This document shows, piece by piece, positions 1 to 19,655 of a DNA stretch of 29,784 bases. How positions within the stretch are numbered: position 1 is the stretch's first letter; every line of letters starts with the position of its first letter. Under the pieces are notes generated by a model, which saw only the letters and a program-made list of their open reading frames with translations, had not been told where the DNA came from and ran no database searches. Location: contig NZ_CP132195.1 of NCBI RefSeq assembly GCF_030718935.1, positions 1-29,784 of the forward strand, given 5' to 3'. The position numbers were made by a program, and so were the translations under genes. This DNA comes from Psychrobacter sp. M13 (GTDB taxonomy: Bacteria; Pseudomonadota; Gammaproteobacteria; Pseudomonadales; Moraxellaceae).

Positions 1-1569
1 ATGCGCCTGTCTACTATTAATCTACAAAAGCGTTTGAGTACTCACTCAAATCAATTACCGCTATGGTTTACGCTAGTAGCAGCATGGCTTGCAGGGGCTA
101 TTTTCTTATTTGCGCTAGCGCCTTATGGGTTCTGGCCGCTAGCAATAGTGTCACCAGCGATTTTATATGCGCTGTTGGTACCAAGTATGAGTGGTCGTCG
201 CGCTTTTATTATTGGTGAAGCTTACGGTATGGGGTTATGGTGCGTCGGCGGCTTTTGGCTCTATACTGCCATCCATGATTATAGCGATACTCCAGCATGG
301 CTTGCGTTGATTATGATTGCGTTGATGGGTCTTGGCATGGGACTGTTTCATGGATTTTTAGCATTAGTTTTTAACCGTATGGTAGGCAAACAACCCTTTT
401 CATTTGCAGCTCTCTGGGTGCTACAAGAATGGTTAAAAACTTGGTTATTCACAGGCTTTCCGTGGCTGTTTGTTGGCTATGCGTTTACTGAAGAGTATTG
501 GTTATCGTCCTTAGCACCTATTGCTGGTGTTTTTGCCGTCTCTTTTGTTGCCATAATATTGGCTGTAAGTTTAGTAGAGCTACTGCGTCGGCGCAGTAGT
601 TATGCCGTCGTTTCTGTACTGTTATTAGCCATTAGCACATCATTATGGCTGGTCAATCCGCAATGGACAAAACCTAAGGGCACACCTGATCTGTCAGTGT
701 CATTGATTCAAGGTAATATTTCACAAGATATAAAGTGGCTGACTCAATATCAAGTAGAAACGCTAAAGATTTATGCGAAGTTAACACGTAGCGAGTGGGG
801 TAGTGATATTGTGGTGTGGCCTGAATCATCTATTCCGATGTTTCAGGATGAGGCTGCGGGCTTTATTAGTGAAATGATAGAAATGGCCAATGCGACCAAT
901 ACGACATGGATAACTGGTATCCCTTATAAGGATAAAGCGGCATTCAATACCAGTACGGATAAGTATCTCCCATTTTATAATAGCGTGATTGCTCGAGGTG
1001 TAGAAGCTGAAGGCTTATATAAGAAGCAGCGTCTAGTGCCTTTTGGAGAGTATATTCCATTTGAAGGTTTGCTCGATATCTTCCCAAATTTGGCCGGTAG
1101 TCAGGATATCAAGAGCTATAGTCGTGGTAGTGATCAGCAGTCACCGCTACAGGTACGTGGACACAATGTAGGTACAGCAATTTGTTATGAGGTAGCTTAT
1201 CCAGACACCACGCGTAAAAATGCAATCGATACTGACTTTTTGTTGACCGTCTCCAACGATGCCTGGTTTGGCACTTCAGCAGGGCCATTGCAACATTTGC
1301 AAATGGTACAGATGCGCGCTCTTGAGAACGGGCGCTGGTTTATTCGAGCGACCAATACTGGTGTTACCGCTATCATTAACCATAAAGGTCGTATTGTAAA
1401 ACGCGCACCGCAGTTTGAGCGTACTGTACTACGTGGTGAGATACAGGCACGGGTTGGCAACACTCCCTTTATGCTTATGGGAAATTATCCTATCTTGATA
1501 ATAATAACCTTGTTATTACTACTAAGCTATTTTGGCAAAGGTCTAACCACACTTAGAAGACGAGGGTAA
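1..1569 (+). CDS. lnt: Apolipoprotein N-acyltransferase (Lnt)
   Basis: Lnt is an inner-membrane enzyme that adds the third acyl chain, taken from a phospholipid, to the N-terminal diacylglyceryl-cysteine of lipoproteins. The 522-residue protein has several hydrophobic segments in the first ~220 residues, then a periplasmic nitrilase (carbon-nitrogen hydrolase) domain and a C-terminal membrane helix (~495-511). The nitrilase triad is visible: Glu275 in WPESS, Lys342 in YKKQRLVPFGEY and Cys395 in AICYE, matching Glu267/Lys335/Cys387 of the E. coli enzyme. The length is normal for the family. The start codon is the first base of the window, so its ribosome binding site and promoter cannot be judged unless the molecule is circular. 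lgt follows on the same strand ~440 bp downstream. lnt is normally a chromosomal core gene, so a copy beside a plasmid replicon is notable. The family call is secure. Confidence 0.96.
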   Translation: MRLSTINLQKRLSTHSNQLPLWFTLVAAWLAGAIFLFALAPYGFWPLAIVSPAILYALLVPSMSGRRAFIIGEAYGMGLWCVGGFWLYTAIHDYSDTPAWLALIMIALMGLGMGLFHGFLALVFNRMVGKQPFSFAALWVLQEWLKTWLFTGFPWLFVGYAFTEEYWLSSLAPIAGVFAVSFVAIILAVSLVELLRRRSSYAVVSVLLLAISTSLWLVNPQWTKPKGTPDLSVSLIQGNISQDIKWLTQYQVETLKIYAKLTRSEWGSDIVVWPESSIPMFQDEAAGFISEMIEMANATNTTWITGIPYKDKAAFNTSTDKYLPFYNSVIARGVEAEGLYKKQRLVPFGEYIPFEGLLDIFPNLAGSQDIKSYSRGSDQQSPLQVRGHNVGTAICYEVAYPDTTRKNAIDTDFLLTVSNDAWFGTSAGPLQHLQMVQMRALENGRWFIRATNTGVTAIINHKGRIVKRAPQFERTVLRGEIQARVGNTPFMLMGNYPILIIITLLLLLSYFGKGLTTLRRRG

Positions 1570-2006
1570 TAGTAAACTTAGTCATAATAATTTAATCAGC
1601 ATAAATTTTATTGTAGGGTTCATGTTTCAGCTGCTTTAGAATCTAAGTCTTGATCAAGCGATTCTACGAAACTTTCAGATATTATCATGCTGTAGATATC
1701 TCTAACCAAATGACCATATTCGTGACATGCATCGAATCTACTTTTCTCCATAGTTTTTTGGTTATTCAAAAAGATAAAAGGTATTCACGCCTCAGTTGGT
1801 TGATTAGATTTAGGGAGAATATTACATTATTGGAATAATTTTTTTCCGCTTGCTGCGCGCAAGACAAACAGATGTTTCGAAATATTTATCCCAGCACCAC
1901 GTTATGATTGTTGACACTCTTTTGTTCTGAACAGACGGTCGTGTTCGCAAGGGTCGAACTTTGCTATTATAACCAACATTCTATTATCAATAATTATGAT
2001 ACCTTT
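1570..2006. other. lnt-lgt intergenic region
   Basis: About 440 bp without a convincing gene. A 62-codon open frame at 1650-1838 has no ribosome binding site and no recognisable motif. A TTGACA hexamer lies at 1911-1916 and a TATTAT at 1965-1970, but they are too far apart to form one promoter. The lgt promoter is probably near 1940-1970. No strong terminator is seen after lnt. Confidence 0.4.
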
Positions 2007-2891
2007 ATGATGATTCATCCTCAGTATGATCCCGTTGCGCTGTCTTTGGGCCCAGTAGAAGTGAACTGGTATGGTTTAATGTACCTGCTGGCATTTGCCA
2101 CCGCTTATGGTCTGGCTTGGTATCGTAGTACCAAACGCGACAATTGGACCACCGATATGGTGTCTGATTTGGTCTTTTATGGGGCGCTTGGCGTTATTTT
2201 AGGCGGTCGGATTGGCTATGTGCTGTTTTATCAATTCGGCGAGCTACTACAAAACCCAGCCTACCTATTAAAAGTTTGGGAAGGCGGTATGTCTTTCCAC
2301 GGCGGCTTTATTGGCGTCATGATAGGTATGTGGTTCTTTGCGCGTAAATACAAAAAAACCACCTTTCAAGTATTCGATTTTATCGTTCCTTGCGTGCCAA
2401 CTGGCTTACTGTTTGGTCGTATCGGTAATTATATCAATGGTGAACTATGGGGGCGCGTATCAGACGGTGGCTATAATTGGCTGACCTACTTTCCGCAAGC
2501 CGCTGCCTTTGATATGGAGCAATTACAGAGCAATCCACAATTGCAAGAATTGATGATTGAGGTTAATGGTCAGTACATACTGCCTCGTCATCCATCGCAA
2601 CTATATGAAGCCTTCGCCGAAGGTCTGCTGCTATTTATCTTTTTATGGTGGTACTCATCAAGGCCGCGTCCACGTATGGCCGCTTCTGCCGTGTTCTTAC
2701 TGGGCTACGGTATCAGCCGCTTTATCATTGAATTCTTCCGTCAGCCAGATGCTGATCAAGGATTTATCCTTTTAGGCTGGATGACTAAAGGTCAACTCCT
2801 AAGCGCACCGATGATTATCGCCGGCTTAATCATGCTGATTTGCGCTTATAAACGTGGTATCTATGATTGGGGTAAGCAGTCTGCTTATTAG
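2007..2891 (+). CDS. lgt: Prolipoprotein diacylglyceryl transferase (Lgt)
   Basis: Lgt moves a diacylglyceryl group from phosphatidylglycerol to the lipobox cysteine of prolipoproteins, the first step of lipoprotein maturation in the inner membrane. From 2007 the protein has 294 residues, the usual family size. It shows the N-terminal DPVALSLGPVEVNWYGLMY region, the MSFHGGFIG motif and the Lgt signature GRIGNYINGELWGR, followed by HPSQLYEA. The frame is open upstream to 1908, but those 33 codons match nothing in the family and the known N-terminus begins at the MMIHPQYDP stretch, so 2007 (or the adjacent ATG at 2010) is chosen. No good Shine-Dalgarno is visible. With lnt just upstream and lspA at 18948-19655, the window encodes the whole lipoprotein pathway. 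The function is secure; the start is moderately so. Confidence 0.96.
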   Translation: MMIHPQYDPVALSLGPVEVNWYGLMYLLAFATAYGLAWYRSTKRDNWTTDMVSDLVFYGALGVILGGRIGYVLFYQFGELLQNPAYLLKVWEGGMSFHGGFIGVMIGMWFFARKYKKTTFQVFDFIVPCVPTGLLFGRIGNYINGELWGRVSDGGYNWLTYFPQAAAFDMEQLQSNPQLQELMIEVNGQYILPRHPSQLYEAFAEGLLLFIFLWWYSSRPRPRMAASAVFLLGYGISRFIIEFFRQPDADQGFILLGWMTKGQLLSAPMIIAGLIMLICAYKRGIYDWGKQSAY

Positions 2892-3029
2892 GTATGAGAA
2901 ACAATCATGTATGAACTAATAAAAATGAACGCCGTGCTAACAAGATACTGTAGTGGTCTATATAAGTGATCAATGGTTAGGTGGTATGGCGTCAAATTGT
3001 AGTGATCAAAAGGTTTAAAGGCAATGCTA

Positions 3030-3233
3030 TTATCGCTCTACTAGACGTTCTTCAATCATCTCGGTGAGCAGCTGCGTCACTGTTTTTCGGCTATCAAGTG
3101 CATGCTTTTTGAGCGCAATGTACTTTTCTTCATCAATATTGAAGTTAACCCGTACTGTTTTTTTCGGAGCGTTTGTCACGTCTGACAAATCTAGCGTGTT
3201 TTTAGCGTCCTTACTTGGTCTACCAGCTTTCAT
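3030..3233 (-). CDS. Ribbon-helix-helix partition protein, ParG-like
   Basis: A 67-residue basic protein directly downstream of parA (9-bp gap, same strand). The first ~27 residues are polar and probably flexible (KAGRPSKDAKNT). The rest fits a ribbon-helix-helix fold: a VRVNFNID strand, then helices IALKKHAL and TVTQLLTEMIEERL. This size, tail-plus-RHH design and position match ParG-type centromere-binding proteins that partner small ParA/ParF ATPases. A ribosome binding site AAGGTG precedes the ATG. It probably binds the ACTC-box arrays at 3898-3931 and 4982-5036, repressing the operon and forming the partition complex. The RHH fold is well supported; the ParG role is inferred from context and from the boxes. 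Confidence 0.8.
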   Translation of the reverse strand: MKAGRPSKDAKNTLDLSDVTNAPKKTVRVNFNIDEEKYIALKKHALDSRKTVTQLLTEMIEERLVER

Positions 3234-3242
3234 ACTTGCACC

Positions 3243-3881
3243 TTATTTTTTATCAAAAAATGTTTTAACTTCGTTTACTAGGGCTGTCATCTCTTGAACT
3301 GCGTTACTATTAGCTGATTCAGTATCGAATACCGTTTTACCTAATGAGGCGCTATTCGGATAACTCACACGCTGCATGATTCTACTGTTTAGCACAGGTA
3401 GACCGTACTCTAGTAAAACTGAGGCGACCTCTTTACCAATATTAGTATTCTGGATAGCACGAGATACTACAAATGCTGCTTTGAGTTTGCCATCCGTCAT
3501 CTCTATACGCTGCTTCACTAAGTCAACTAAATCGCTAGTCGCCCAGACGTCATAGGGACTAGGTTGCACTGGGATCAATACAAAATCAGCTGCTTTAATA
3601 GCGGACAAAGCTAAGCTAGTTGCTTGCGGTGACCCATCAATCACTACATATTCTTTATCAGACACGTTTTTTAGATCTTTATCTAGCGTCGGCCGATCAA
3701 GCCCAATCACTGGTACTGGGTTGTCTTCATCAACAGCTCGCCAATCGCGTGCACTTCCCTGCTGATCACTATCTACTAATAATACGCTATGCCCTTGCAG
3801 CTGTAACCCACGAGCTAATTGAGTGGCAATAGTTGTCTTGCCGCTACCCCCTTTTTGATTTAGTACGGCAATGACTTTCAT
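3243..3881 (-). CDS. parA: ParA/ParF-family partition ATPase
   Basis: A small Walker-type ATPase of 212 residues that drives plasmid segregation. It carries the deviant Walker A motif (QKGGSGKT, residues 9-16), the LLVDSDQQGSARDW Walker A-prime region and a VVIDGSP Walker B-like segment. There is no N-terminal DNA-binding extension, as in the short ParF class. The frame is open four codons further up, but the ATG at 3881 has a GGAG box six bases upstream and gives the canonical MKVIAVLNQKGG start. It is the first gene of a two-gene operon with the RHH protein at 3030-3233. An array of four ACTC boxes lies just upstream in the predicted leader, which suggests autoregulation by the partner. Confidence 0.93.
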   Translation of the reverse strand: MKVIAVLNQKGGSGKTTIATQLARGLQLQGHSVLLVDSDQQGSARDWRAVDEDNPVPVIGLDRPTLDKDLKNVSDKEYVVIDGSPQATSLALSAIKAADFVLIPVQPSPYDVWATSDLVDLVKQRIEMTDGKLKAAFVVSRAIQNTNIGKEVASVLLEYGLPVLNSRIMQRVSYPNSASLGKTVFDTESANSNAVQEMTALVNEVKTFFDKK

Positions 3882-3897
3882 AGAGAGCTCCATTTTC

Positions 3898-3931
3898 TTG
3901 AGTATTTGAGTATTTGAGTATTTGAGTATTT
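3898..3931 (-). repeat. ACTC-box operator array upstream of parA
   Basis: Three full and two partial copies of the octamer TATTTGAG in tandem. On the minus strand this reads ACTC-AAAT-ACTC-AAAT, four ACTC tetramers separated by four-base AT spacers. The array sits between the predicted parA promoter and the parA ribosome binding site. The TP228 ParG protein is known to bind ACTC tetramers separated by 4-bp AT-rich spacers, so this is probably the operator of the partition operon. The same octamer recurs at 4982-5036. Confidence 0.75.
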
Positions 3932-3936
3932 CTAAG

Positions 3937-3965
3937 ACTTTACTTAATAGTTAGATGAATAGCAA
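3937..3965 (-). promoter_or_regulatory. Predicted parA operon promoter
   Basis: On the minus strand, -35 TTGCTA (3965-3960) and -10 TAAAGT (3942-3937) are spaced by 17 bp. Transcription would begin near 3930, directly at the ACTC-box array, so a bound RHH protein would block initiation or clearance. The hexamers are only moderate matches. Confidence 0.45.
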
Positions 3966-4129
3966 CATTTTTTAATCAAAGTAGCGATATCTTCAGTATT
4001 GATTTAATCTCTATTCTAATAATAATTATAGAACTACCTCAATTTGTAAAATCCTGAGTTGGCATAGTAAACTACCTCCTGAAACATAATGTGCAGCTAT
4101 TGGGTATCATTTTAAGCTGCTAAAATGGG

Positions 4130-4158
4130 TACTTAATGCGGTTAGCATTCGTTATAAT
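4130..4158 (+). promoter_or_regulatory. Predicted promoter of the Cro/C1-type regulator
   Basis: A perfect -10 TATAAT (4153-4158) lies ~49 bp before the start codon of the gene at 4207; the -35 at the right distance is poor (TACTTA, 4130-4135). The region upstream (3966-4129) holds no gene. The short sequence AACTACCTC occurs there twice, near 4031 and 4071, with no assigned role. Confidence 0.45.
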
Positions 4159-4206
4159 CCAGCCGCCAATCAAAAACCACAAACAATTTATAATTAGGAA
4201 GCTATT

Positions 4207-4431
4207 ATGGTGAAATGTCACTTATCGACTATCATGGGCGAAAGGCGTCTTAAAATTGCCGATGTCTCAAGAGATACTGGTATCAATCGCGGCACCATCA
4301 CCCGTATGTATAATGAAGAAGCTACTAGAGTTGACTTAGATGTTATTGAGTCTGTATGCAATTACCTTAGAATTGATATTGGTGATTTATACGAAATAAT
4401 AAATGAGGACAGCAGTGAATCGTCAGCTTAA
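4207..4431 (+). CDS. Small Cro/C1-type (XRE) transcriptional regulator
   Basis: A 74-residue protein that is almost entirely one helix-turn-helix domain of the Cro/C1 type. MGERRLKIADVSRDTG and INRGTITRMYNEE form the DNA-reading pair, and VIESVCNYLRIDIGDLYEI is typical of the compact HTH_26-like family. A ribosome binding site (AGGAAG) lies seven bases before the ATG and a TATAAT box lies at 4153. Placed between the partition locus and the replicon, it may control plasmid maintenance genes, possibly the unknown gene at 4588 through the TGTAGAGAGT repeats at 4443 and 4533. The DNA-binding fold is clear; the target is unknown. Confidence 0.85.
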   Translation: MVKCHLSTIMGERRLKIADVSRDTGINRGTITRMYNEEATRVDLDVIESVCNYLRIDIGDLYEIINEDSSESSA

Positions 4432-4498
4432 GCAAGCTTATTTGTAGAGAGTAATTACTTTTAAACAAACAAAAAGACCTATAGAAGATTACTTTATC

Positions 4499-4526
4499 TT
4501 GCAATAGATTAAAATATAGGTATAAT
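4499..4526 (+). promoter_or_regulatory. Predicted promoter of the 89-aa gene, flanked by TGTAGAGAGT repeats
   Basis: -35 TTGCAA (4499-4504) and -10 TATAAT (4521-4526) are separated by 16 bp, a strong match. The decamer TGTAGAGAGT occurs at 4443-4452 and again at 4533-4542, on either side of the promoter and in the same orientation. This is a plausible operator pair for the neighbouring XRE protein. Confidence 0.55.
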
Positions 4527-4587
4527 TTGACCTGTAGAGAGTCATTTTAACCTTTATTTATTTTTAATAGTCTATAGGAGAATAACA

Positions 4588-4857
4588 ATGAGCGCCAATT
4601 TATCGCGACTTAACACCTGCACTTGGTTTAGTGACAACGCTAAGTCTTTAGCCTATCAACTGTTATCAAATCTACAAATACAACAGGGCACACAGTTAGC
4701 ATCATTACTTAGCGTTGACTCTATTCTTTATAATGACGAAGCAGTCTATGTGTGGGTGCAACGACAGCTAGATGCTGGACTTGTTGCTGATGATTACGCT
4801 TTAAGCACGCTTGAGACTGCTTTCATAGATACTATAGACGATGACCAAGCTGCTTAG
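4588..4857 (+). CDS. Hypothetical protein, 89 aa
   Basis: I do not recognise this protein. It is small (89 residues), acidic at the C-terminus (DTIDDDQAA), with no membrane segment or signal peptide. The central part, SLAYQLLSNLQIQQGTQLAS followed by YVWVQRQLDAGLV, looks helical and could be a degenerate winged-helix or a small adaptor fold, but nothing is diagnostic. It is a credible gene: it has a strong promoter at 4499-4526, a ribosome binding site (TAGGAGA) eight bases before the ATG, and a good rho-independent terminator at 4933-4964. Its place between the partition genes and the replicon suggests a plasmid backbone role. Confidence 0.7.
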   Translation: MSANLSRLNTCTWFSDNAKSLAYQLLSNLQIQQGTQLASLLSVDSILYNDEAVYVWVQRQLDAGLVADDYALSTLETAFIDTIDDDQAA

Positions 4858-4932
4858 TTTTAGTGGTAGATGTAGCAACCTAATTATTCTAATTTATCTC
4901 AAATTATTTAGCATTTAATGTAGGTTATTACT

Positions 4933-4964
4933 AAAAAAAGCTACCATGATCGGTAGCTTTTTTG
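4933..4964 (+). terminator. Rho-independent terminator after the 89-aa gene
   Basis: A stem AAAGCTACC / GGTAGCTTT with a short ATGATC loop is followed by a T run. The A run on the other side means it could also work on the minus strand. Confidence 0.85.
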
Positions 4965-4981
4965 CACAGCTTAATTTTACA

Positions 4982-5036
4982 TATTTGAGTATTTGAGTAT
5001 TTGAGTATTTGAGTATTTGAGTATTTGAGTATTTGA
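4982..5036. repeat. ACTC-box array, candidate centromere (parS)
   Basis: Six exact tandem copies of TATTTGAG plus a partial seventh. On the minus strand this is ACTC-AAAT repeated, identical to the unit upstream of parA but longer. It lies in a gene-free stretch just after a terminator and ~1.1 kb from the parA promoter. An array detached from any promoter is what one would expect of a partition site, with the parA array serving as operator. This follows the TP228 ParFGH model and is inferred. Confidence 0.7.
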
Positions 5037-5231
5037 TGCGGATTCAATTATCGAACTTAGGAAGGTTGTTAATAACAATCTGTTACAAAAATTAATTGGG
5101 ATAAGGATCTTAAGTATTAGCATTTACTTTGTATATCTTATTTTGCGCGTTATCGTATTTCTTATCAGATTGATAAAAAGCAAAATCAAGATACAACATA
5201 GGTTCAAGTGCTCTAAAATCAGTTGAAAAAG

Positions 5232-5292
5232 TACAGATATAATATTAAAAATAACATCAAATAAATACAGATATAATATTATAAATAACATT
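5232..5292. repeat. AT-rich direct repeat, two copies, 34-bp period
   Basis: TACAGATATAATATTA starts at 5232 and again at 5266, and the similarity continues through AAATAACAT in each copy with about one mismatch over 26 bases. The repeats precede the rep promoter. They could be protein binding sites or a remnant of a duplication. The stretch 5037-5231 shows nothing else. Confidence 0.6.
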
Positions 5293-5314
5293 GAAAAGCT
5301 TGCTATATAAGGGC

Positions 5315-5343
5315 TTGAACGAGTTGTAATAAAGGTGTAAACT
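5315..5343 (+). promoter_or_regulatory. Predicted rep promoter
   Basis: -35 TTGAAC (5315-5320) and -10 TAAACT (5338-5343) are spaced 17 bp apart. Transcription from ~5350 would give a leader of ~130 nt containing the hairpin at 5362-5392. The hexamer match is moderate. Confidence 0.4.
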
Positions 5344-5353
5344 CAAGAGCTAG

Positions 5354-5436
5354 AAAAACGAAAGCCCCGACAGTTGGACGCTGTCAGGGCTTGAATGAAG
5401 TTAAACTGCGGCAGCAGAGATAACCCCAAAATCGAA
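5354..5436 (-). ncRNA. Predicted counter-transcribed RNA controlling rep (RNAI-like)
   Basis: On the minus strand a promoter TTGTGT-17 bp-TATAAT (5470-5465 and 5447-5442) faces away from rep. About 80 nt further is a strong hairpin (arms 5362-5373 and 5381-5392, one mismatch), followed on that strand by TCGTTTTTC, a rho-independent terminator. The transcript would be fully complementary to the rep mRNA leader. ColE2-type plasmids are known to control Rep synthesis with such an antisense RNA against the leader. A smaller stem, CTGC/GCAG, lies nearer the 5' end. The RNA is inferred from promoter, terminator and position. Confidence 0.65.
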
Positions 5437-5481
5437 TGGTTATTATATCTCTACTAACGCGCTAACACAAGCGTAAATGAG

Positions 5482-6525: not shown

Positions 6526-6779
6526 GTGATATGTGGGAAGAGGTTATTCGTTAAGCCTATCTACACAATAAGACGTATTCCACGCAAACCAATTCCAGAG
6601 AGTCTAGGTTCCCGATTGTGACCCTGCGTTAATTTTGCCCACCGCTTAGGCTATCCATAGAAATTTAGCTTTGCCTTAGCTTTTAAGCGCTTGCCATAGC
6701 ATTAACTTGCTTACTCACCACAGCTGCTCGCCATGATTGGCCGCAAGGCATCTATGCAATGTTTATAAACCACAGGGGC

Positions 6780-13386: not shown

Positions 13387-13447
13387 TCATACACAGCATA
13401 GCATTATATGGTTTAGATGCTAAAAAAATATTCGTTTTAAAAAGAAG

Positions 13448-13473
13448 AGAACCCTGCACAAAGGCAGGGTTCT
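13448..13473. terminator. Bidirectional terminator between mob operon and TA operon
   Basis: A perfect 10-bp stem AGAACCCTGC / GCAGGGTTCT with a six-base loop. On the minus strand it is followed by CTTCTTTTT, so it ends the higBA transcript; it can also stop the mobilization operon coming from the left. Confidence 0.85.
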
Positions 13474-13507
13474 GCAACTACACAGAATATATGACGGTCT
13501 TGATAGT

Positions 13508-13810
13508 TCAGACATTAAAACCTATATGTTTTCCTGTGGGAAGCTCAACATCAATACGCAGTTTACCACCCATTGCTTCAACATATTTTTTCATAGTTGA
13601 AATCTTAAGATCGCTACCACGATTTTCTATTGCTGAAAGAGACGGCTGTTTAATGCCAAGTGCTTCAGCCAGCTCTTTTTGTGAGAGTTTTAATTCTTCA
13701 CGGATACAGTAAAGCTGATTTTCTAAAAATAGGTTGTTCGCTATGTCTTGAATACGAGTTTGGCTCTCTGGAGAGCGTTTAGCTAATAATTCTTGCAGTG
13801 TTTTAGCCAT
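13508..13810 (-). CDS. higA: HigA-type antitoxin, XRE family
   Basis: A 100-residue protein with a Cro/C1-type helix-turn-helix in the middle (LSQKELAEALGIKQPSLSAI, about residues 42-61) and a short C-terminal strand region (LRIDVELPTGK). It is the second gene of a toxin-antitoxin operon and overlaps the end of the toxin gene by 8 bp. A GGAG box inside the toxin gene lies nine bases before its ATG. Toxin-first order is typical of higBA loci. The antitoxin should neutralise the toxin and, with it, repress the operon by binding the palindrome at 14173-14190. On a plasmid this pair probably acts as an addiction module. Confidence 0.88.
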   Translation of the reverse strand: MAKTLQELLAKRSPESQTRIQDIANNLFLENQLYCIREELKLSQKELAEALGIKQPSLSAIENRGSDLKISTMKKYVEAMGGKLRIDVELPTGKHIGFNV

Positions 13811-14159
13811 TTGATGAGTCTCCTAAGGTTGTAAGATGAAGCTCATACTGCTGGTCTGCAGTTGCTAGCATTTCTTTGTAAAAGCGCTTTTTGTTACCTT
13901 TGTCGCCAATACAGAGCACAATAGCTTGACGTAGTGGGTCAAATGCAAAAAAAGCTCGGAGTGGTTTACCGCGGTGCTGAACACGTAGTTCTTTCATGTT
14001 GGTAAATTTAGAATCATATACGGTATCAACTAAGGGGCGACCTAAGCTTGGACCTTGCTGCTCTAGAACAACTAAAGCTGCCAGTACCTTTTCTTGAGTT
14101 GATTGATCTTGCTGCTCAAGCCATTCATTAAATAGCTCTGTTGTGATCACAGTCCACAT
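13803..14159 (-). CDS. higB: HigB/RelE-superfamily toxin
   Basis: A 118-residue protein of the RelE/HigB (phage Gp49-like) superfamily, whose members cleave mRNA on the ribosome. Diagnostic stretches are FNEWLEQQDQSTQEKVLAAL, LGRPLVDTVYDSKFTNMKEL, RVQHRGKPLRAFFAFDP and ILCIGDKGNKKRFYKEM (with VLCIGDKGNKKRFYKEM in the actual protein). The length is full for the family. The predicted promoter places the transcription start only ~12 nt before the ATG and no Shine-Dalgarno box is seen, so translation may be nearly leaderless and weak, which would suit a toxin gene. The antitoxin gene overlaps its 3' end. Confidence 0.88.
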   Translation of the reverse strand: MWTVITTELFNEWLEQQDQSTQEKVLAALVVLEQQGPSLGRPLVDTVYDSKFTNMKELRVQHRGKPLRAFFAFDPLRQAIVLCIGDKGNKKRFYKEMLATADQQYELHLTTLGDSSNG

Positions 14160-14172
14160 ATTAAAACCGTTA

Positions 14173-14206
14173 TATAGATTATAGTCTATATTTTATAGTG
14201 AGTTAA
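14173..14206 (-). promoter_or_regulatory. higBA promoter and operator
   Basis: On the minus strand -35 TTAACT (14206-14201) and -10 TATAAT (14183-14178) are 17 bp apart. The -10 lies inside the near-perfect palindrome TATAGATTATAGTCTATA (14173-14190; 6-bp arms plus a nearly symmetric centre), a likely binding site for the antitoxin. Confidence 0.65.
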
Positions 14207-14471
14207 AGCAATTTTCAAATAAAAAAATACGTTAAAAGTTTTTATTTTATAGGCACTATCTGCATTTACCAATCATTCTTAGTATGTTTAAAATACTCTA
14301 AGAATGCAGTACCCTAGTGAGGACTTGAACCTTCAGCTGTAGGCTACTGATAACAATAGCCTACATTATTTATAGCAGCTCATTGTACATAGCAGTGTAC
14401 CTTTCAACGTGAAGCAATCGTATTCCTATTCTTTGATTAGTCTCTGAAAATCCTTAAATATAAGACCGCCT
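14207..14471. other. Intergenic region with two hairpins and a tRNA-3'-end-like fragment
   Basis: Two inverted repeats are present: CATTCTTAG / CTAAGAATG (14274-14282 and 14298-14306) and TGTAGGCTA / TAGCCTACA (14338-14346 and 14357-14365). The second may end the rcnR-mntP transcript from the right, though no clean T run follows. Between them, on the minus strand, GAAGGTTCAAGTCCTCA (~14317-14333) resembles the T-arm of a tRNA, but the 5' stem does not pair properly. No gene is seen. Confidence 0.45.
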
Positions 14472-15020
14472 TTAAACCACCATGTTCACACCAATAGCAA
14501 TCAATACCAAACCGCCCAAAGCTTCTGCCCAACTGCCCAGCCATGTTCCTGATTGACGTCCTATATAAGCTCCTAAAATACTTAAAATAGCGGTCGTCAG
14601 TGCAATGATTAAACATGCCAAATAAGCGTTAACGGACAATAAATTCAAAGTAAAACCTGCACCCATCGCATCAAGACTGGTGGCTATAGCCAACGATAGC
14701 AATGTCTTATGACTCAAATTGATCCGAGTATCATCATCGTTTACTGAACGTGACTCATAGAGCATCTTGATGCCAAGCGCTACCAGTATGACAAAAGCAA
14801 TCCAAGAAGCCCCTTCAGCAAACCAACCTAGCATGGTAGAGCCAAGCGCATAACCAATGAGTGGCATTATCCCCTGAGCAACCCCGAAATAGACACCAAT
14901 GAGCAACGCCATTTTTATAAACTGTGGCTTAGAATCCCCTCTGTGAGTGGATCCAAGACCGATTGAAGCCGCAAACGCATCCGCAGCCAGTGCTAACGCC
15001 AACAATAGTATTTCTAACAT
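14472..15020 (-). CDS. mntP: Manganese efflux pump MntP
   Basis: A 182-residue, six-helix inner-membrane exporter of the MntP (DUF204) family, which expels Mn2+. Both family motifs are present: [11 protein letters not shown] near the N-terminus with Asp14, and [12 protein letters not shown] in the second half, with the C-terminal [10 protein letters not shown]. Length is normal. It lies 33 bp after the RcnR-like regulator on the same strand, so the two form an operon under the RcnR operator at 15351. No yybP-ykoY manganese riboswitch, the usual control element for mntP, is seen upstream. This suggests the pump is here wired to nickel/cobalt sensing or has changed substrate. Family assignment is firm. 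Confidence 0.93.
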
Positions 15021-15053
15021 AGAAAATAGTACCCTTTAAGATGTTTTATTCTT

Positions 15054-15329
15054 CTACTTCATATAAGTTTTTAGTATCGACAACACGTCTTCTATCTCTT
15101 GTTGACGTTGTTGCTGGGTAAGGTCTTCTGCTCCTAAATGTTCTTTTATATGCTCTTCCAACACCTCCTTCATAAGACCGTTTACCGCCCCCTTTAATGC
15201 CGCTATCTGCTGTAAGAGAGCCATGCATTCAGGATTGCCTTCTAATGACGCCTCTATTGCTATCGACTGCCCTTTGATACGTCTGATACGCCCTAGCAAC
15301 TTTTTCTTACTTTTTTGAGTGTGTGACAT
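15054..15329 (-). CDS. RcnR/DmeR-type Ni/Co-responsive repressor
   Basis: A 91-residue all-helical repressor of the CsoR/RcnR family. It opens MSHTQKSKKKLLGRIRRIKG and continues ALLQQIAALKGAVNGLMKEV, very close to RcnR. The four metal ligands of E. coli RcnR are conserved at the same numbers: His3, Cys35, His60 and His64, which marks the nickel/cobalt rather than the copper or formaldehyde branch. It is divergent from a DmeF-like exporter gene across a perfect RcnR site, the arrangement of dmeRF loci. Metal binding would release the repressor and open both sides. It is the first gene of an operon with mntP. Confidence 0.93.
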   Translation of the reverse strand: MSHTQKSKKKLLGRIRRIKGQSIAIEASLEGNPECMALLQQIAALKGAVNGLMKEVLEEHIKEHLGAEDLTQQQRQQEIEDVLSILKTYMK

Positions 15330-15350
15330 TATTTTTATTGCCTCATTTTA

Positions 15351-15365
15351 TACTGGGGGGTAGTA
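15351..15365. promoter_or_regulatory. RcnR operator, TACT-G6-N-AGTA
   Basis: The 15-mer TACTGGGGGGTAGTA fits the known RcnR recognition sequence (TACT, six G, one base, AGTA) without mismatch. It lies 22 bp before the regulator's ATG and 68 bp before the DmeF start, so one site can control both divergent transcripts. Confidence 0.92.
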
Positions 15366-15432
15366 TATTTACTAATGTTGTTTATAATACGTGAAATTAT
15401 CATATTTTCATACACAGCTAGGGATTTAAAAC

Positions 15433-16382
15433 GTGAAAGAATCAACTATTCAGTGGGAACACTCTCATGATTTCGGTGTCGATAGCGCCCAAAACAAATC
15501 TAAAGTAAAGATTGTATTTTGGTTGACGACGATAATAATGGTTTTAGAGATCGCTGCTGGTACATGGTCTGGCTCTATGGCATTACTTGCTGATGGGTGG
15601 CACATGGGCACGCATTCAGCCGCATTTCTTATCGCTATTTTTGCTTATTCGTACGCTAAAAAGAACGCTAATAATAAATCATTTAGTTTTGGTACGGGCA
15701 AGGTAAATTATCTCGGTGGTTTTGCAAGTGCCATTGCATTAGCCATTGTCGCATTATTAATGATTTTAGAATCAGTCCAACGAATATAGAATCAGTCCAA
15801 CGAATAATAGAGCCAAATAATATACATTTTAACGAAGCCATTATCGTTGCTATTGTTGGTTTGATAGTAAACATAGTGTCGGCATTTATACTTAAAGATG
15901 ACCATGACCATCACCATCACGATCATGGTCATGGTCATGGTGATTCCGACCATCATCATGACCATGATCACAATATGAAAGCGGCTTATTTACATGTGTT
16001 AGCAGATGCACTCACTTCTGTGCTTGCTATCGTGGCGTTATTAACTGGTAAATATATGGGCATCATCTGGATTGATCCTGTCATGGGCATTGTCGGTGCA
16101 ATAGTGATTCTTCACTGGTCTTATGGATTGATCAAAGAATCGAGTAGCGTGCTTTTAGACAAATCTGTTGATGTTTCAACTTTTGAGAAGATATCACAGA
16201 CTCTCGATAAGAGAAATACGATTATTAACGATATTCATGTCTGGAAAATAGCATCAACCCACCAAGCTGCCATTCTTTCAGTGTCCTCACCATCCCCTTT
16301 AAGTACGGAAGAATACAAAAAAATATTATCAGAATCCCTACCTCAACTGTCTCATGTCTCTGTTGAGGTTAATAAAACCTGA
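15433..16382 (+). pseudogene. dmeF: DmeF-like cation diffusion facilitator, frameshifted by a 20-bp duplication
   Basis: DmeF proteins are inner-membrane Co2+/Ni2+ exporters of the CDF family. The gene starts with GTG at 15433 (AGGGA box upstream) and encodes WEHSHDF, the metal-site helix ALLADGWHMGTHSA and FGTGKVNYLGGFAS, then stops at 15789 just after LESVQRI. The rest (IIEPNNIHFNEAI..., a His/Asp-rich cytoplasmic loop at ~15897-15972, HVLADALTSV, and the C-terminal domain to 16382) continues in another frame. The cause is an exact tandem duplication of 20 bp (15767-15786 and 15787-15806). Removing one copy restores a single 309-codon frame. Apart from that the gene is intact, so the mutation is recent or reversible. 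It is divergent from the RcnR-like gene and shares its operator. Confidence 0.93.
15767..15806 (+). repeat. Exact 20-bp tandem duplication inside dmeF
   Basis: Two adjacent identical copies of TAGAATCAGTCCAACGAATA. Twenty is not a multiple of three, so the second copy shifts the frame and creates a TAG stop at the junction (15787-15789). Slipped-strand deletion could restore the gene. Confidence 0.95.
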
Positions 16383-16411
16383 ATGGGGTGATTTGAATCT
16401 AGGAGAGTGCT

Positions 16412-16759
16412 TTGAGTATATGGTTTAAGTACGCAATCACTGCTTCACTGGTTGTTATTATCTCTGAGGTTGCCAAACGTAGCGACAGAGTCGGTGCTTT
16501 GCTTGCCTCCTTGCCTTTAGTCACGCTCCTTACCTTAATTTGGCTATATGTTGAAAAGCAGCCGATAGCTAAGATAAGTAATCACGCCTACTATACCTTT
16601 TGGTATGTCCTTGGAACTCTTCCTTTTTTCTTGTTATTCCCTTACTTGCTCAACAAATTTGGTTTTGGTATGGCACTGCTGTCTAGTAGCTTGCTAACGG
16701 CTTTATTTTTTGCATTATTCGCAACCGTACTACAAAGCTTTAAAATTAATCTTTTTTAA
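16412..16759 (+). CDS. DUF3147 family small membrane protein
   Basis: A 115-residue hydrophobic protein with about four membrane segments, and SEVAKRSDRVGALLASLPLVT between the first two (about residues 18-38), characteristic of the DUF3147 family. The function of the family is unknown. The start is TTG at 16412, supported by an AGGAG box seven bases upstream and by the absence of a good ATG. It follows the dmeF frame by 29 bp on the same strand, so it probably belongs to the same metal-induced transcript. Because dmeF is broken, polar effects on this gene are possible. Confidence 0.82.
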   Translation: MSIWFKYAITASLVVIISEVAKRSDRVGALLASLPLVTLLTLIWLYVEKQPIAKISNHAYYTFWYVLGTLPFFLLFPYLLNKFGFGMALLSSSLLTALFFALFATVLQSFKINLF

Positions 16760-16822
16760 TCAATGGTAAGTACTTACCTGATTTTTATAGGCATATTTAT
16801 AGAGTAGATTGAGAGGTAATCT

Positions 16823-16945
16823 ATGAAAAATAAAGGATTTTTATTGCGGGCAGTAGCAGTATGTATTTTGATTTGTGGATTGATAGCTGCAATTATAATT
16901 AGGCTTAACTTGATGCCGTCTAGTACTTTATCTAATATATTTTAA
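16823..16945 (+). CDS. 40-aa single-pass membrane peptide
   Basis: A short gene of 40 codons: a basic start (MKNKGFLLR), a hydrophobic helix (about residues 9-26), then RLNLMPSSTLSNIF. The ribosome binding site GAGAGG lies seven bases before the ATG, and a strong hairpin begins three bases after the stop codon. The topology is a membrane-anchored microprotein. It lies 63 bp after the DUF3147 gene and may be the end of the dmeF operon. No family is recognised; it could be a chance frame, but the start signal and terminator argue for expression. Confidence 0.55.
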   Translation: MKNKGFLLRAVAVCILICGLIAAIIIRLNLMPSSTLSNIF

Positions 16946-16947
16946 AA

Positions 16948-16979
16948 AGCTGTAAGGTGCTAGTTAGCACCTTACAGCT
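16948..16979. terminator. Shared bidirectional terminator
   Basis: A perfect 13-bp stem (AGCTGTAAGGTGC / GCACCTTACAGCT) with a six-base loop separates two convergent small genes. A TTTTT run follows on the minus strand; on the plus strand the tail is AAAATTC, so it should work best for the minus-strand gene at 17024. Confidence 0.8.
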
Positions 16980-17023
16980 AAAATTCTAAGCACGTATCAT
17001 AAAAATAATATGAACCTAAATTT

Positions 17024-17149
17024 TTAATGACAGTGGTAAGTACCTCTTTTGGTGTCGTTATGGCAACCAGATGCGTTAGTTCTACCACCATGAGCAAATG
17101 CGGAAGATACAAATGTTGCTGCCAGCACTACGATCAATAGCTTTTTCAT
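17024..17149 (-). CDS. 41-aa exported Cys/His microprotein (YHCH motif)
   Basis: A 41-residue gene encoding a clean signal peptide (MKKLLIVVLAATFVSSAFA, cleavage before His20) and a 22-residue mature part, AHGGRTNASGCHNDTKRGTY followed by HCH. The mature sequence matches the short Cys/His motif (HGG...GCHNxxxxGxYHCH) found in many secreted and envelope proteins and thought to bind metal. Here it stands alone as the whole mature protein, with two cysteines and four histidines. The ribosome binding site AAAGGA lies eight bases before the ATG. Surrounded by metal-efflux genes, it could be a periplasmic metal-binding peptide; that is inference. Confidence 0.75.
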   Translation of the reverse strand: MKKLLIVVLAATFVSSAFAHGGRTNASGCHNDTKRGTYHCH

Positions 17150-17273
17150 AAATTTATTCCTTTAGTGTTAGGTTTAGTTACAAACCATGACATATCTATT
17201 CGAACAAAGCTGATTATTTAGCTCTAGCACAGTCAAACCATAATGCTAATCCGATATAGCGTTTATTTTTTGA

Positions 17274-17343
17274 CTATGTCCCAACGGAACCATCTAATAA
17301 GGCTCATTAATCAATTAATAGACTGCTGTAGTGGAACCACTTA
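17274..17343 (+). repeat. Left nested inverted repeats of the recombinase segment
   Basis: The outer arm 17274-17292 (contains CCCAACGGAACCA) pairs with 18061-18079, 16 of 19 positions. The inner arm 17317-17343 (contains GACTGCT and GGAACCACTTA) pairs with 17996-18022, 24 of 27 positions. The inner arm ends exactly in the stop codon of the recombinase gene. Possible termini of a small element, or recombination sites for the enzyme. Confidence 0.75.
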
Positions 17344-17973
17344 ATGAGCAATGATAAGTTCCGGTCTTTCCTTGCCCACATCAGCAATCAGATGCCGTGA
17401 GCACTTGGCCATTTTTTGAATATCAGAATAGCTATGACCTGATTTGAGTAGACTAGCGATGATCTTGCGCTTTTCGGTATCTTTCCTACGTCCTGAATAT
17501 TTACCTTCTGCCTTAGCACGAGCAATACCTTGCATTTGACGGTTACGGCGATCCTCATAATCTTTTCGAGCAATGGCTGCGAGCATATCCAGCATCATCG
17601 AATTAATGGCCTGCAATACACTACTCATAAATTCAGTGCTGCTTTCAGATTGAAGCGCCATATATGAGGTCGGCAGCTCTTTTGATACGATAGAGAGCTT
17701 TTTTTCTGATAGCATTCTTTTGAGCGTATCCCAATCAGCTTGGCTCAAACGCGCTAAGCGATCAATCTGCTCAACTAAGATCACATCGCCCTTATGAGCA
17801 TCTTCAATCAGTTGCATAAGCTTGGGTCGTACCAAGGTAGCTCCTGATTCGTTTTCGACATAGAAGGCGGCAATTTTGTGGCCATGATCTTTGGCAAATG
17901 CTATGAGTTCGCTTTTGGCACGCTTAGCATCTTGTTCTTTGGTAGACGCTCGTAGATACGCTCTGATAAACAT
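17341..17973 (-). CDS. Serine recombinase (resolvase/invertase family)
   Basis: A 210-residue small serine recombinase. The N-terminal catalytic domain has the active-site serine in RAYLRASTKEQ (Ser10), VENESGATLVRPKLMQLI, and the arginine-rich VEQIDRLARLS stretch. A long helix (~115-145) leads to AEGKYSGRRKD and a C-terminal helix-turn-helix ending in CSRHLIADVGK. The ATG at 17973 is preferred because an AGG box lies five bases upstream; a GTG two codons earlier is also in frame. Such enzymes resolve plasmid multimers or transposon cointegrates, or invert DNA. The gene is framed by two nested inverted-repeat pairs, and three AGTCTGTT octamers lie just upstream, likely binding sites. Confidence 0.93.
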   Translation of the reverse strand: MFIRAYLRASTKEQDAKRAKSELIAFAKDHGHKIAAFYVENESGATLVRPKLMQLIEDAHKGDVILVEQIDRLARLSQADWDTLKRMLSEKKLSIVSKELPTSYMALQSESSTEFMSSVLQAINSMMLDMLAAIARKDYEDRRNRQMQGIARAKAEGKYSGRRKDTEKRKIIASLLKSGHSYSDIQKMAKCSRHLIADVGKERPELIIAH

Positions 17974-17986
17974 AAACACCTAAAAT

Positions 17987-18079
17987 AGTCTGTTATAAGT
18001 GGTTCCATTATAGCAGTCTGTTTTAAGTAGTCTGTTAATAGGTTTGAGGGCAGAAATAACTGGTTCCATTGGGGTATAC
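17987..18079 (+). repeat. Right nested inverted repeats and candidate res site
   Basis: This holds the right inner arm (17996-18022, TAAGTGGTTCCA...) and right outer arm (18061-18079, TGGTTCC, TTGGGG). AGTCTGTT occurs three times in the same orientation at 17987, 18015 and 18029, just upstream of the recombinase start, as expected for a res-type site made of repeated subsites. Confidence 0.65.
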
Positions 18080-18339
18080 CCTAGGATAATAGGAAATCCA
18101 TCGTGGATGACAAAACCTATTTAGTTTTTAAACGATATGGATTGGTCGATAGCGTGTAAGATAAGCTGGAAAAACGAGTAGAGTATTGAATCATCCATAC
18201 TGGGCTTAAAATGAATTTTTTTTGTGAGTAATTTCTGCTCGATGTTATTCATTTGTCGCCATCGTGAGTCATGGCGACTTCTGATTCAATCAGAGAAAGC
18301 AATTTTGAGCAATAAGGCATGCTTGCAGCAGGGTTTGTT
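18080..18339. other. Intergenic region
   Basis: No gene is seen. An 8-bp inverted repeat GTCGCCAT / ATGGCGAC (18255-18262 and 18271-18278) could be the transcript end of the DUF3817 gene, but no T run follows on either strand. Confidence 0.5.
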
Positions 18340-18702
18340 CTAGGCTTCTTTACTTACGCTTTTTTGTAGATTCTTTTTTAGTAAATGATCAAATATGAAC
18401 GGGCCAAATGGTAAGAGTGATCCGAGTACGCCCGCAGGTATTACCCAACGAGGAATTTTTACTTTAATAGCTGTGCCTACAAGTACTACGATATAGACAA
18501 TGAATAGTACACCGTGCGCCATACCGATATATTTCACACCTTCTGGAATGTCCATCATATATTTTAGTGGCATGGCGATGAAGAGCAATAATAAGAAAGA
18601 GGTGCCTTCTAGGTAGCCTGTAAGGGTAAGACTTTTTAACGCGGTCTCTTGTTTTTTTCTAAGGCTGTGAATTTTTTCAATAGTTGGCTGAGCCTGTGAC
18701 AC
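18340..18702 (-). CDS. DUF3817 family membrane protein
   Basis: A 120-residue protein with three hydrophobic segments and the DUF3817 pattern LTGYLEGTSFLLLLFIAMPL, MPLKYMM and GVKYIGMAHGVLFIVY, ending PFGPFIFDHLL. Family members are small integral membrane proteins of unknown function. The start is GTG at 18702, preceded by AAAGGA ten bases away; the hydrophilic N-terminus (QPTIEKIHSLRKKQE) fits. It is the last gene of a long minus-strand row (cadA, ccmFGHI, lspA), 245 bp after lspA, so it probably has its own promoter. Confidence 0.88.
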   Translation of the reverse strand: MSQAQPTIEKIHSLRKKQETALKSLTLTGYLEGTSFLLLLFIAMPLKYMMDIPEGVKYIGMAHGVLFIVYIVVLVGTAIKVKIPRWVIPAGVLGSLLPFGPFIFDHLLKKNLQKSVSKEA

Positions 18703-18947
18703 TATATTTTCCTTTTGTTATTATCAATAAAGAATTTATGGATTATTCAATGTTGCTATAATAATGGCTCTACGCAGAGCTTTTAAGTATTGGGTTTTAA
18801 GACCTAAAATGAGTGAGTACCTATACCAGTCATACATTACCTTCCAGTTCACATTTTGTAAACATACTCAAGTATAAACAGTATTTTTCCGTATAGAGTG
18901 ACTACGACGCTAGTTCATTTTGTTCGTGATAATCGGCATCAATGTGC

Positions 18948-19655
18948 TTATTTATTACGCTTACTTTCTAAAAATATCATGTCAATTATAATCAATGCGA
19001 CACCGACACAGACACCTATATCTGCAACATTGAAAATAGGATAATTCCAGACATCAGCATAATGCACATGGATAAAGTCAACCACTTTACCAATTCTTAA
19101 ACGATCGATTAAGTTGCCAATCGCACCACCGAGCATTAAGGCTAACCCCATGGACAATAGCTTGGCTGCACGTGGCGATTTGATTAAATAAACCGTTAAA
19201 AAGATAGCCATTACAAAAGCTAAGCCTGAGAAAAACCATTTCTGCCAACCGCCAGCGTCGGCTAAAAAGCTAAATGCTGCCCCATAGTTATAAGCGAGTG
19301 TCCAGTTGAGAAATGGTTCAATGACCGGTACGGGGTCATTGAATGCTAATTTGGTTTGGGCCAACCACTTGGTCCATTGATCAAGTATTAATACCATTAT
19401 CGCCAATAAATACCAGATAAAAGCGCGACTGCCATTGGCAACCATTTTTGGCATTTTGTCCAACTTACCTTTAGTTGTTATGGAGTTGCCTGAAGTCACG
19501 TACATAGCTTTAGGCGTATGATTCATGGTTTTAGAGTCAATCGATTGATGAGTACTACTCACAGCTATAGGTACTTTATTGTCAGCAATATTAGTACTAG
19601 CCGATTCAACGCTATTCAATTTAGTACTATCTAATCTGTCGGTAGATTCAGTCAT
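18948..19655 (-). CDS. lspA: Lipoprotein signal peptidase (LspA) with long N-terminal extension
   Basis: LspA is the aspartyl protease of the inner membrane that removes signal peptides from diacylglyceryl-prolipoproteins, the second maturation step. The core (about 76-233) has four membrane helices and the family motifs LDQWTKWLA, NYGAAFSFL, GAIGNLIDRL..VVDFIH and FNVADIGVCVG, with catalytic aspartates Asp193 and Asp212. The reading frame adds ~75 residues upstream that are hydrophilic and rich in Ser, Thr, Asn and Lys, against a family length of ~165. No strong ribosome binding site is seen at 19655; in-frame ATGs at residues 48, 51, 68 and 71 could be the true start. LspA homologues (PbrC) are known partners of lead-resistance ATPases, and a CadA/PbrA-type pump is encoded at 24472. 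Confidence 0.95.
   Translation of the reverse strand: MTESTDRLDSTKLNSVESASTNIADNKVPIAVSSTHQSIDSKTMNHTPKAMYVTSGNSITTKGKLDKMPKMVANGSRAFIWYLLAIMVLILDQWTKWLAQTKLAFNDPVPVIEPFLNWTLAYNYGAAFSFLADAGGWQKWFFSGLAFVMAIFLTVYLIKSPRAAKLLSMGLALMLGGAIGNLIDRLRIGKVVDFIHVHYADVWNYPIFNVADIGVCVGVALIIIDMIFLESKRNK

Follow-up and report, generated by a model that had tools for sequence, protein, structure and literature searches.

Second copies of lipoprotein and cytochrome c maturation genes in a plasmid-borne, cadmium-type metal-resistance block of Psychrobacter

The smaller contig (C2, NZ_CP132195.1) of the two-contig genome of Psychrobacter sp. M13 is 29,784 bp long and was analysed in its entirety as the window of this study; its companion, C1, is a chromosome of 3,177,391 bp. 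The window carries second copies of the lipoprotein maturation genes lnt, lgt and lspA, in one block with a heavy-metal pump gene and with second copies of ccmFGHI, which make up the haem-ligation half of System I of cytochrome c maturation. The contig is in all likelihood circular, since the arrangement of DUF411, 239 bp and lnt that spans its ends is found with an identical, uninterrupted 239 bp in the circular record pPspP2G3a. On the presumed circle lspA and lnt lie about 10.9 kb apart, and the lipoprotein genes are thus near each other. A preliminary description of the window had placed intact Lnt, Lgt and LspA beside plasmid genes, and open reading frames, Pfam domains and conserved blocks bear this out, the plasmid genes being those with ParA, Replicase-family Rep, KfrA_N and MobA_MobL relaxase domains in Pfam; it had overlooked ccmF, ccmG, ccmH and ccmI and the closeness of the lipoprotein genes on the circle. 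The principal genes are as follows.

1..1569, + strand: lnt, apolipoprotein N-acyltransferase, second copy (LNT_N and CN_hydrolase domains; chromosomal copy 79% identical)
2007..2891, + strand: lgt, prolipoprotein diacylglyceryl transferase, second copy (Pfam LGT; chromosomal copy 83% identical)
18340..18702, − strand: DUF3817 small protein, last gene of the cadA run (domain scan)
18948..19655, − strand: lspA, signal peptidase II, second copy (Peptidase_A8; chromosomal copy 62% identical)
19796..21076, − strand: ccmI, apocytochrome c chaperone (TPR_CcmH_CycH and Ig_CycH; annotated in pPspP2G3a; chromosomal CcmI 77% identical)
21073..21648, − strand: ccmH, thiol protein of the haem ligation complex, with CPKC (Pfam CcmH; chromosomal CcmH 73% identical)
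21639..22301, − strand: ccmG/dsbE, thioredoxin-like, with WCPTC (Redoxin; annotated DsbE in pPspP2G3a; chromosomal CcmG 79% identical)
22302..24350, − strand: ccmF, cytochrome c haem lyase, second copy (Pfam; chromosomal copy 88% identical)
24472..26688, − strand: cadA, P-type ATPase for heavy metals, heading the run (Pfam)
26831..27241, + strand: cadR, MerR-family Cd/Pb regulator, divergent from cadA (domain scan; annotated cadR in pPspP2G3a)

The plasmid Lnt, Lgt and LspA each contain the full-length family domain, with Pfam scores far above the cut-off. Alignment with solved structures revealed that Lnt retains its E, K and C blocks (WPES, KQRLVPFGEYIP and ICYEV), Lgt its HGG and GRIGNYINGELWGR blocks, and LspA both of its Asp blocks (GNLIDR and FNVAD), within which we take the catalytic residues to lie. 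The mechanical open reading frame of lgt begins at a TTG at 1908, as against the gene start at 2007. The ligation half of System I is likewise complete, comprising CcmF, CcmG, CcmH and CcmI with a CXXC motif in both G and H, while none of CcmABCDE, the haem export and chaperone half, occurs among the 28 window proteins taken into the Pfam scan, and the single CcmE of the genome is chromosomal. The chromosome also encodes Lgt, LspA, Lnt and CcmF of its own, all in open frames, which rules out a simple relocation of chromosomal genes. No sign was seen of the island enzymes being cysteine-poor, metal-hardened versions, their cysteine counts being about equal to those of the chromosomal enzymes and higher in the case of LspA.

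The genes cadA, ccmFGHI, lspA and DUF3817 are co-directional, running from 26688 down to 18340. The idea of a portable lipoprotein-processing module stands as regards portability and linkage to metals and fails as regards lipoproteins only, since ccmFGHI sits between cadA and lspA. The gene content also bears on the suggestion that the set confers resistance, through target duplication, to natural compounds that inhibit Lgt, LspA or Lnt (globomycin and myxovirescin, for instance). LspA is a known antibiotic target (PMC6952399), yet no antibiotic-related gene was found among the 28 window proteins and target duplication would leave ccmFGHI and the cadA/cadR context unexplained, which makes this suggestion very improbable.

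Control signals were identified at the head of the run and in its first gap.

26714..26744, − strand: CadR/PbrR-type promoter TTGACT-N19-CATAAT with dyad ACTCTAAAGCCACTAGAGGGT (26721-26741), reading into cadA
24351..24471, − strand: gap between cadA and ccmF, conserved in sequence, with a predicted RNA fold better than all 200 shuffles (z −3.7) and no U tract

The locus thus has the features of a CadR/PbrR-type cad operon, namely a MerR regulator divergent from the pump and a promoter into the pump with a dyad-bearing spacer of the 19-20 bp class, and this promoter is kept in all 13 islands compared, with one dyad substitution in 4. No second CadR operator was found in the window within 3 mismatches, for example before lnt or lgt. 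On the strand of the run, neither the cadA-ccmF gap nor the ccmI-lspA gap contains a terminator-like site, and a weak one of 5 pairs lies between lspA and DUF3817 (18767-18780). The genes beyond cadA may accordingly be co-transcribed with it, and the structured cadA-ccmF gap may determine how much ccm transcript is made relative to that of the pump.

Similar control is known from the pbr and cad operons, in which lspA (pbrC) accompanies cadA or pbrA under a MerR-type regulator (PMC3431237, PMC1526738); the PpbrA promoter has the same −35 element, TTGACT, and the same 19-bp spacer as the cadA promoter of the window (PMC3431237). The pbrABCD operon of Cupriavidus metallidurans, whose PbrC is an LspA, and the cadA-pbrC loci thus resemble the window in combining a P-type ATPase, an LspA homologue and a MerR-type promoter. 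They differ in that the LspA of the pbr operon is fused to a C55-pyrophosphate (C55-PP) phosphatase, for whose maturation it may be needed, and in that Lgt, Lnt and Ccm are not named in the passages of these papers that describe the operon. The kit in the window is far larger, and a fusion of the PbrB/PbrC kind was not found: the window LspA has 235 residues and Peptidase_A8 only, and no such phosphatase is present among the 28 proteins.

Within Psychrobacter the block recurs. pPspP2G3a carries it in the order of the window (lgt, lnt, DUF411, CHAP, cadR/cadA, ccmFGHI, lspA, DUF3817). At least two matches were present for lspA in 47, for lnt in 45, for ccmF in 52 and, counting strong matches, for lgt in 22 of 105 Psychrobacter genomes, these counts being of matches in mostly draft genomes, where a split gene may count twice (as in G075 for lgt); a second lgt match that is weak only occurs in 3 further genomes. 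The doublings co-occur strongly, lspA and lnt being doubled together in 42 of the 105 genomes, lspA alone in 5 and lnt alone in 3 (Fisher 4e-20). The two genes are separated by 10.7-11.1 kb in 29 of 37 same-contig pairs and by at most 14 kb in 35, as computed for pairs with listed coordinates on one contig, the window's own pair being measured across the presumed junction. As a control, CcmE is single in 103 of the 105 genomes, absent in 2 and doubled in none. LspA is single in all 36 non-Psychrobacter genomes drawn evenly from the order, where doubling is thus not general.

Thirteen Cd-type loci from other Psychrobacter genomes were picked because the copy tables showed clustering. In 12 of them cadA, ccmFGHI and lspA stand in the same order, the exception (L017) having lspA, DUF411 and lnt only. 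The module resides on plasmids and, for several of these 13 loci, on chromosome-sized contigs. An assembly chimera was ruled out, since the closed relative pPspP2G3a bears the same block and the block also lies on chromosome-sized contigs of other species. Two cadA-type loci have ccm genes of lower identity to the window: L018, with CcmF at 87, CcmG at 75, CcmH at 89 and CcmI at 88%, and L023, with CcmG at 75, CcmH at 88 and CcmI at 89%.

A second, copper-type island of Psychrobacter shares part of this gene set. It comprises tatABC, a copper ATPase, DUF305, copAB, DUF411, a cytochrome c, copRS, lgt and CHAP, and was found in the KCTC 72983 plasmid and in contig 2 of genome G027; a stretch of the Moraxella osloensis plasmid pSKB0120-2 names tatC, a metal ATPase, DUF305, a multicopper oxidase, silR and lgt, with no ccm genes in the stretch examined. 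This island resembles the window in placing lgt beside metal genes, and in G027 and KCTC 72983 also in having DUF411, CHAP and ccm. It differs in that copRS, copAB, cytochrome c and tatABC replace cadRA and lnt, and in that the CcmF of G027 has a separate origin. In G027 ccmFGHI adjoins the copper island, while the KCTC 72983 plasmid has an annotated ccmGHI-lspA stretch of Cd-type, 94% identical in DNA to the window, with a ccmF match in two pieces alongside. The tatABC set, another duplicated envelope machinery, stands beside the copper ATPase in Psychrobacter (L004:26328-27920) and in Moraxella (L030:1647-3239), where tatC is the one gene named and the other two are unnamed open reading frames with sizes as in L004.

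The descent of the island genes was followed in trees of 30-37 rows per gene, from which rows with stops or low coverage and locus L013 were left out. In this comparison of plasmid with chromosomal copies, which the preliminary description had proposed, island Lnt forms one clade (17 rows, support 100/100), as does island LspA (18 rows, 99/100). Island Lgt forms one weak group (11 rows, 83/0), common to Cd-type and copper-type islands and nesting near a few chromosomal sequences. Island CcmF falls into two clades, of 15 rows (100/100) and of 2 rows (100/100; the G027 copper island and cadA-type L018), and ccm sets have therefore been recruited at least twice and swapped between islands. Island LspA and Lnt are 94-100% identical to the window copies and chromosomal LspA and Lnt 60-82%. 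Recent duplication of the host's own lspA and lnt was ruled out, the island copies being a clade separate from the host chromosomal copy. Among island copies of the seven maturation genes the ratio of non-synonymous to synonymous substitution rates (dN/dS) is 0.07-0.14, indicating purifying selection, as calculated from 5-13 copies per gene and from pairs with dS of 0.05-2 that are not independent, Lgt contributing just 4 pairs. Judged from these identities and ratios, the module is a mobile block that descends from Psychrobacter-like genes and is kept by selection.

Overlapping gene sets were found in unrelated metal and copper islands of Rhodobacterales, Halomonas, Actinomycetota, a cyanobacterium and Firmicutes, the starting point being records of plasmids that carry lnt, ccmF or lgt. 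Roseovarius pTHAF8_a and Dinoroseobacter pDSHI03 carry SCO, DsbB, thioredoxin, PCuAC, M23, DUF411, ZIP, lspA, lnt, LD-transpeptidases and pumps, to which the former adds ccmFGHI and the latter lgt and a multicopper oxidase. Halomonas pHAL1 has the order pump-lspA-lnt-LD-transpeptidase, Roseibium has copper genes, DsbD, lgt, a cytochrome c and ccmFGHI, and Stutzerimonas has cadR, a cation transporter, ZIP, lnt and lspA. The pDSHI03-type island of the Rhodobacterales is thus like the window in its lspA-lnt pair, DUF411, M23 peptidase and metal transporters, with ccmFGHI or lgt in the two plasmids examined; it differs in that its copies are distant (Lnt about 30% identical) and in its extra SCO, PCuAC, Dsb and LD-transpeptidase genes. 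Among the best 80 of 231 relatives of the Dinoroseobacter Lnt, drawn from a scan of 84,980 species genomes, lnt has lspA nearby in 80 of 80, DUF411 in 79, ZIP in 78, SCO in 77, PCuAC in 76, M23 in 75 and LD-transpeptidase in 44. Twenty of these genomes were tested, and at least two lnt matches were present in 19 and at least two lspA matches in 20. Island Lnt of this type (L035-L062) is 89-100% identical in the best segment across 21 named genera, and very recent, wide transfer therefore seems likely; a Porticoccus metagenome-assembled genome (L069) carries one at 82%.

The link to metals was also apparent in 10 plasmid lnt neighbourhoods, picked for genus diversity from an evenly spread 60 of 289 plasmid lnt records (misfiled chromosomes included): metal, copper or cytochrome c genes occur within 7 kb of lnt in 9 of the 10. 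Those of Rhodococcus, Kineococcus and Microbacterium include genes for ResB, CcdA and TlpA, which we take to be System II, the local counterpart of Ccm. As a control, 4 lepB neighbourhoods, taken from 40 entries spread over 375 plasmid records, contained no metal, copper or cytochrome genes, a single "toxic anion resistance protein" not being counted; 9/10 against 0/4 gives a Fisher value of 0.005, both samples being small. In a Roseomonas plasmid island an undecaprenyl-diphosphate phosphatase gene (L206:4782-5609) lies between a metal ATPase and lnt-ccmF-dsbE, which recalls PbrB of the lead operon.

These results can be set against the possibility that housekeeping genes were acquired by chance, or kept for making plasmid loss hard. 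Plasmid-borne essential genes could stabilise a plasmid, and the module is near-identical across hosts; however, the host retains its chromosomal copies, the island genes are under purifying selection, overlapping sets have been recruited into the metal islands of other phyla and plasmid lepB lacks metal linkage in all four neighbourhoods, so that a passenger or addiction role appears quite improbable.

Another possibility is that the enzymes mature plasmid-encoded metal-handling proteins only. The remaining features of the block are these.

27374..28153, − strand: CHAP-domain protein, predicted peptidoglycan amidase/endopeptidase (Pfam; likely start 28096)
28895..29545, − strand: DUF411 protein, possible lipoprotein (Pfam; Cys after LAASSLFS, by eye)
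29731..29765, no strand assigned: 15-bp inverted repeat between the divergent DUF411 and lnt, largely kept among islands

Neither the window nor the P2G3 plasmid, both of which have ccmFGHI, shows a CXXCH motif in any frame of at least 60 residues, and the same scan picks up the cytochrome c annotated in the copper island; the plasmid ccmFGHI must therefore serve chromosomal cytochromes. DUF411, which the preliminary description had predicted to be a lipoprotein, has a possible lipobox by eye and was not flagged by a lipobox pattern run over the plasmid proteins, which matched only CcmH and an RNaseT-like protein, neither a likely lipoprotein. Dedicated processing has in its favour this one possible lipoprotein of the module, and the cytochrome c and multicopper oxidase near tatABC in the copper island. 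Yet three extra enzymes would hardly be needed for one lipoprotein, and with the lack of a CXXCH protein this makes dedicated processing decidedly unlikely. The DUF411-lnt inverted repeat is a candidate shared operator or terminator, and a perfect 26-nucleotide hairpin with T runs on either side, between CHAP and DUF411 (28471-28527), is a likely bidirectional terminator.

The extra Lnt and Lgt could instead alter surface lipoproteins so that the N-terminus binds less metal, as proposed for the copper-induced Lit2; Lnt, too, caps the α-amino group. In Gram-positive bacteria the proposal is that the α-amino group next to the thioether sulphur is capped, and lit2 and lgt2, which are carried on a mobile element, are transcribed together and induced by copper (PMC8275575, PMC8689077). 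The copper elements of Enterococcus and Listeria that carry lit2-lgt2 (Armbruster 2019, as cited in PMC8275575 and PMC8689077) favour such remodelling, and resemble the block described here in that second lipoprotein-modifying genes are mobile, metal-induced there and located beside copper pumps and an oxidase. These elements differ in being Gram-positive, in having Lit and Lgt only and in responding to copper, and genes for LspA, Lnt and cytochrome c are absent from the two stretches examined. In the Pfam matches of the 28 window proteins no Lit family member next to Lgt with a CopY-type regulator was found, the Enterococcus record naming TIGR01906, which we take to be Lit. Plasmid lgt neighbourhoods were also found in Enterococcus, Listeria and Lactococcus, the last with a two-component system, DUF2933 and CHAP and with no named metal gene. 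Remodelling leaves ccmFGHI, LspA, LD-transpeptidases and the Dsb and SCO genes of the same islands unexplained, and the chromosomal Lnt is already there; we regard it as unlikely.

We favour, with a little better than even confidence, a model where the block is a mobile, metal-linked back-up for thiol-dependent steps of envelope maturation that soft metals block, in line with the protection of envelope assembly from metal stress that the preliminary description had suggested. Entry of Cd, Pb or Zn would lead CadR to switch on cadA, and read-through from cadA would probably express ccmFGHI and lspA as well. lnt, lgt and DUF411 lie in the same block, where lnt and lgt may likewise be induced. 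The extra enzymes would process prolipoproteins and apocytochromes encoded on the cell's own chromosome. The free cysteine thiols occupied by soft metals would be those of the prolipoprotein +1 Cys (before Lgt), the apocytochrome CXXCH, the CXXC of CcmG and CcmH, and the catalytic Cys of Lnt. Flux would fall because the metals bind thiols needed for these maturation steps, and more enzyme would restore it while the pumps remove the metal.

The gene lists of the islands correspond to reported copper and cadmium targets, a match that favours back-up of metal-inhibited, thiol-dependent maturation; the recurrence of similar sets next to the resistance genes of distant bacteria suggests that cells survive toxic metals partly through spare copies of metal-poisoned machinery. 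The E. coli lnt gene was originally identified as cutE, a copper gene, and the name CutE occurs in an annotation among the Lnt matches; copper is also said (Durand, 2015) to hit cytochrome c assembly. In E. coli copper interferes with the acylation of lipoproteins (PMC6538781), an effect that a commentary traces to a modified thiol on the +1 Cys ahead of the Lgt step; it names LD-transpeptidases and the formation of disulphides as other targets of copper (PMC6593411). Cadmium lowers membrane cytochromes c and b in a Rubrivivax cadA mutant, as reported in PMC7283390.

Several observations weigh against back-up. The cadmium effect on cytochromes is ascribed in that same report to haem synthesis, the authors pointing to HemN (PMC7283390). 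Lipoprotein maturation is proven as a metal target for copper, yet the pump and regulator of the module look Cd/Pb/Zn-specific. The island enzymes, with no loss of cysteines, are not visibly metal-hardened. In this genome the chromosomal ccmFGHI locus is separate from that of ccmE, so the copying of FGHI without ABCDE, like the contrast with CcmE, may be due in part to operon structure. lgt is the least constant part of the module and adjoins lnt in just 4 of the 13 Cd-type loci, a count for which the genome-wide lgt match table, where a locus stretch ends near lnt, shows no lgt there. In the Rhodobacterales-type flanks, which extend to 10 kb at most with some contigs shorter, lgt was found in 0 of 80, CcmI in 0 of 80 and CcmF in just 16 of 80, lgt being 10.2 kb from lnt in pDSHI03. 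Among the lnt neighbourhoods, that of Meiothermus has only a nearby pump and regulator, with lgt adjoining lnt and otherwise mostly metabolic genes, and that of Deinococcus has no clear metal gene.

A broader proposal, to which we give somewhat less than even credence, is that metal islands in several phyla hold, besides pumps and proteins that sequester or oxidise, a third, so far unrecognised class of determinant, namely mobile kits of spare parts backing up thiol-dependent steps that are poisoned by metals: lipoprotein acylation, cytochrome c ligation, disulphide exchange, LD-transpeptidation and copper insertion. If so, the gene lists of the islands would show, in genetic form, which envelope functions metals damage. 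The envelope targets of toxic metals have so far been found singly in laboratory strains, those of copper being lipoprotein acylation, LD-transpeptidases and disulphide formation (PMC6593411); if the vulnerable steps are repeatedly packed into resistance islands, the islands would name the targets and point to a tolerance mechanism distinct from efflux, and the additional lnt, lgt, lspA and ccm genes of annotated genomes would be accounted for. The association of lspA with cadA or pbrA and the lit2-lgt2 pair are known already, and what appears to be new is a complete lipoprotein pathway that is mobile together with cytochrome c ligation. None of the literature matches listed mentions, in its title or the opening of its abstract, a plasmid or island that unites lnt, lgt, lspA and ccm, or the cross-phylum pattern, and the word "lipoprotein" does not occur in the main text of the P2G3 genome paper (PMC4754876).

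Additional features were noted in the rest of the plasmid. No pdif (XerC/XerD) borders were detected in the window with two consensus patterns. A resolvase gene at 17341-17979 is flanked by 27-nucleotide inverted repeats (17317-17343 and 17996-18022) that are 89% complementary, and this stretch (about 17317-18022) occurs at 92-95% in at least 9 other Psychrobacter plasmids and at least 1 Moraxella plasmid among the best 40 of 86 records; it therefore has the look of a separate mobile unit bordering the module. A cation diffusion facilitator gene is split into two open reading frames (15433-15789 and 15861-16382) and appears broken, with an imperfect 20-nucleotide tandem repeat at 15759-15798, and the adjoining metal repressor and MntP genes look intact. 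A Gp49/HTH toxin-antitoxin-like pair of the HigBA type (13508-14159) belongs to the plasmid backbone and has matches in Acinetobacter plasmids too. The 8-nucleotide repeat TTGAGTAT forms arrays at 3890-3939, by the start of parA, and at 4969-5050, upstream of rep, which are probably iterons or partition sites.

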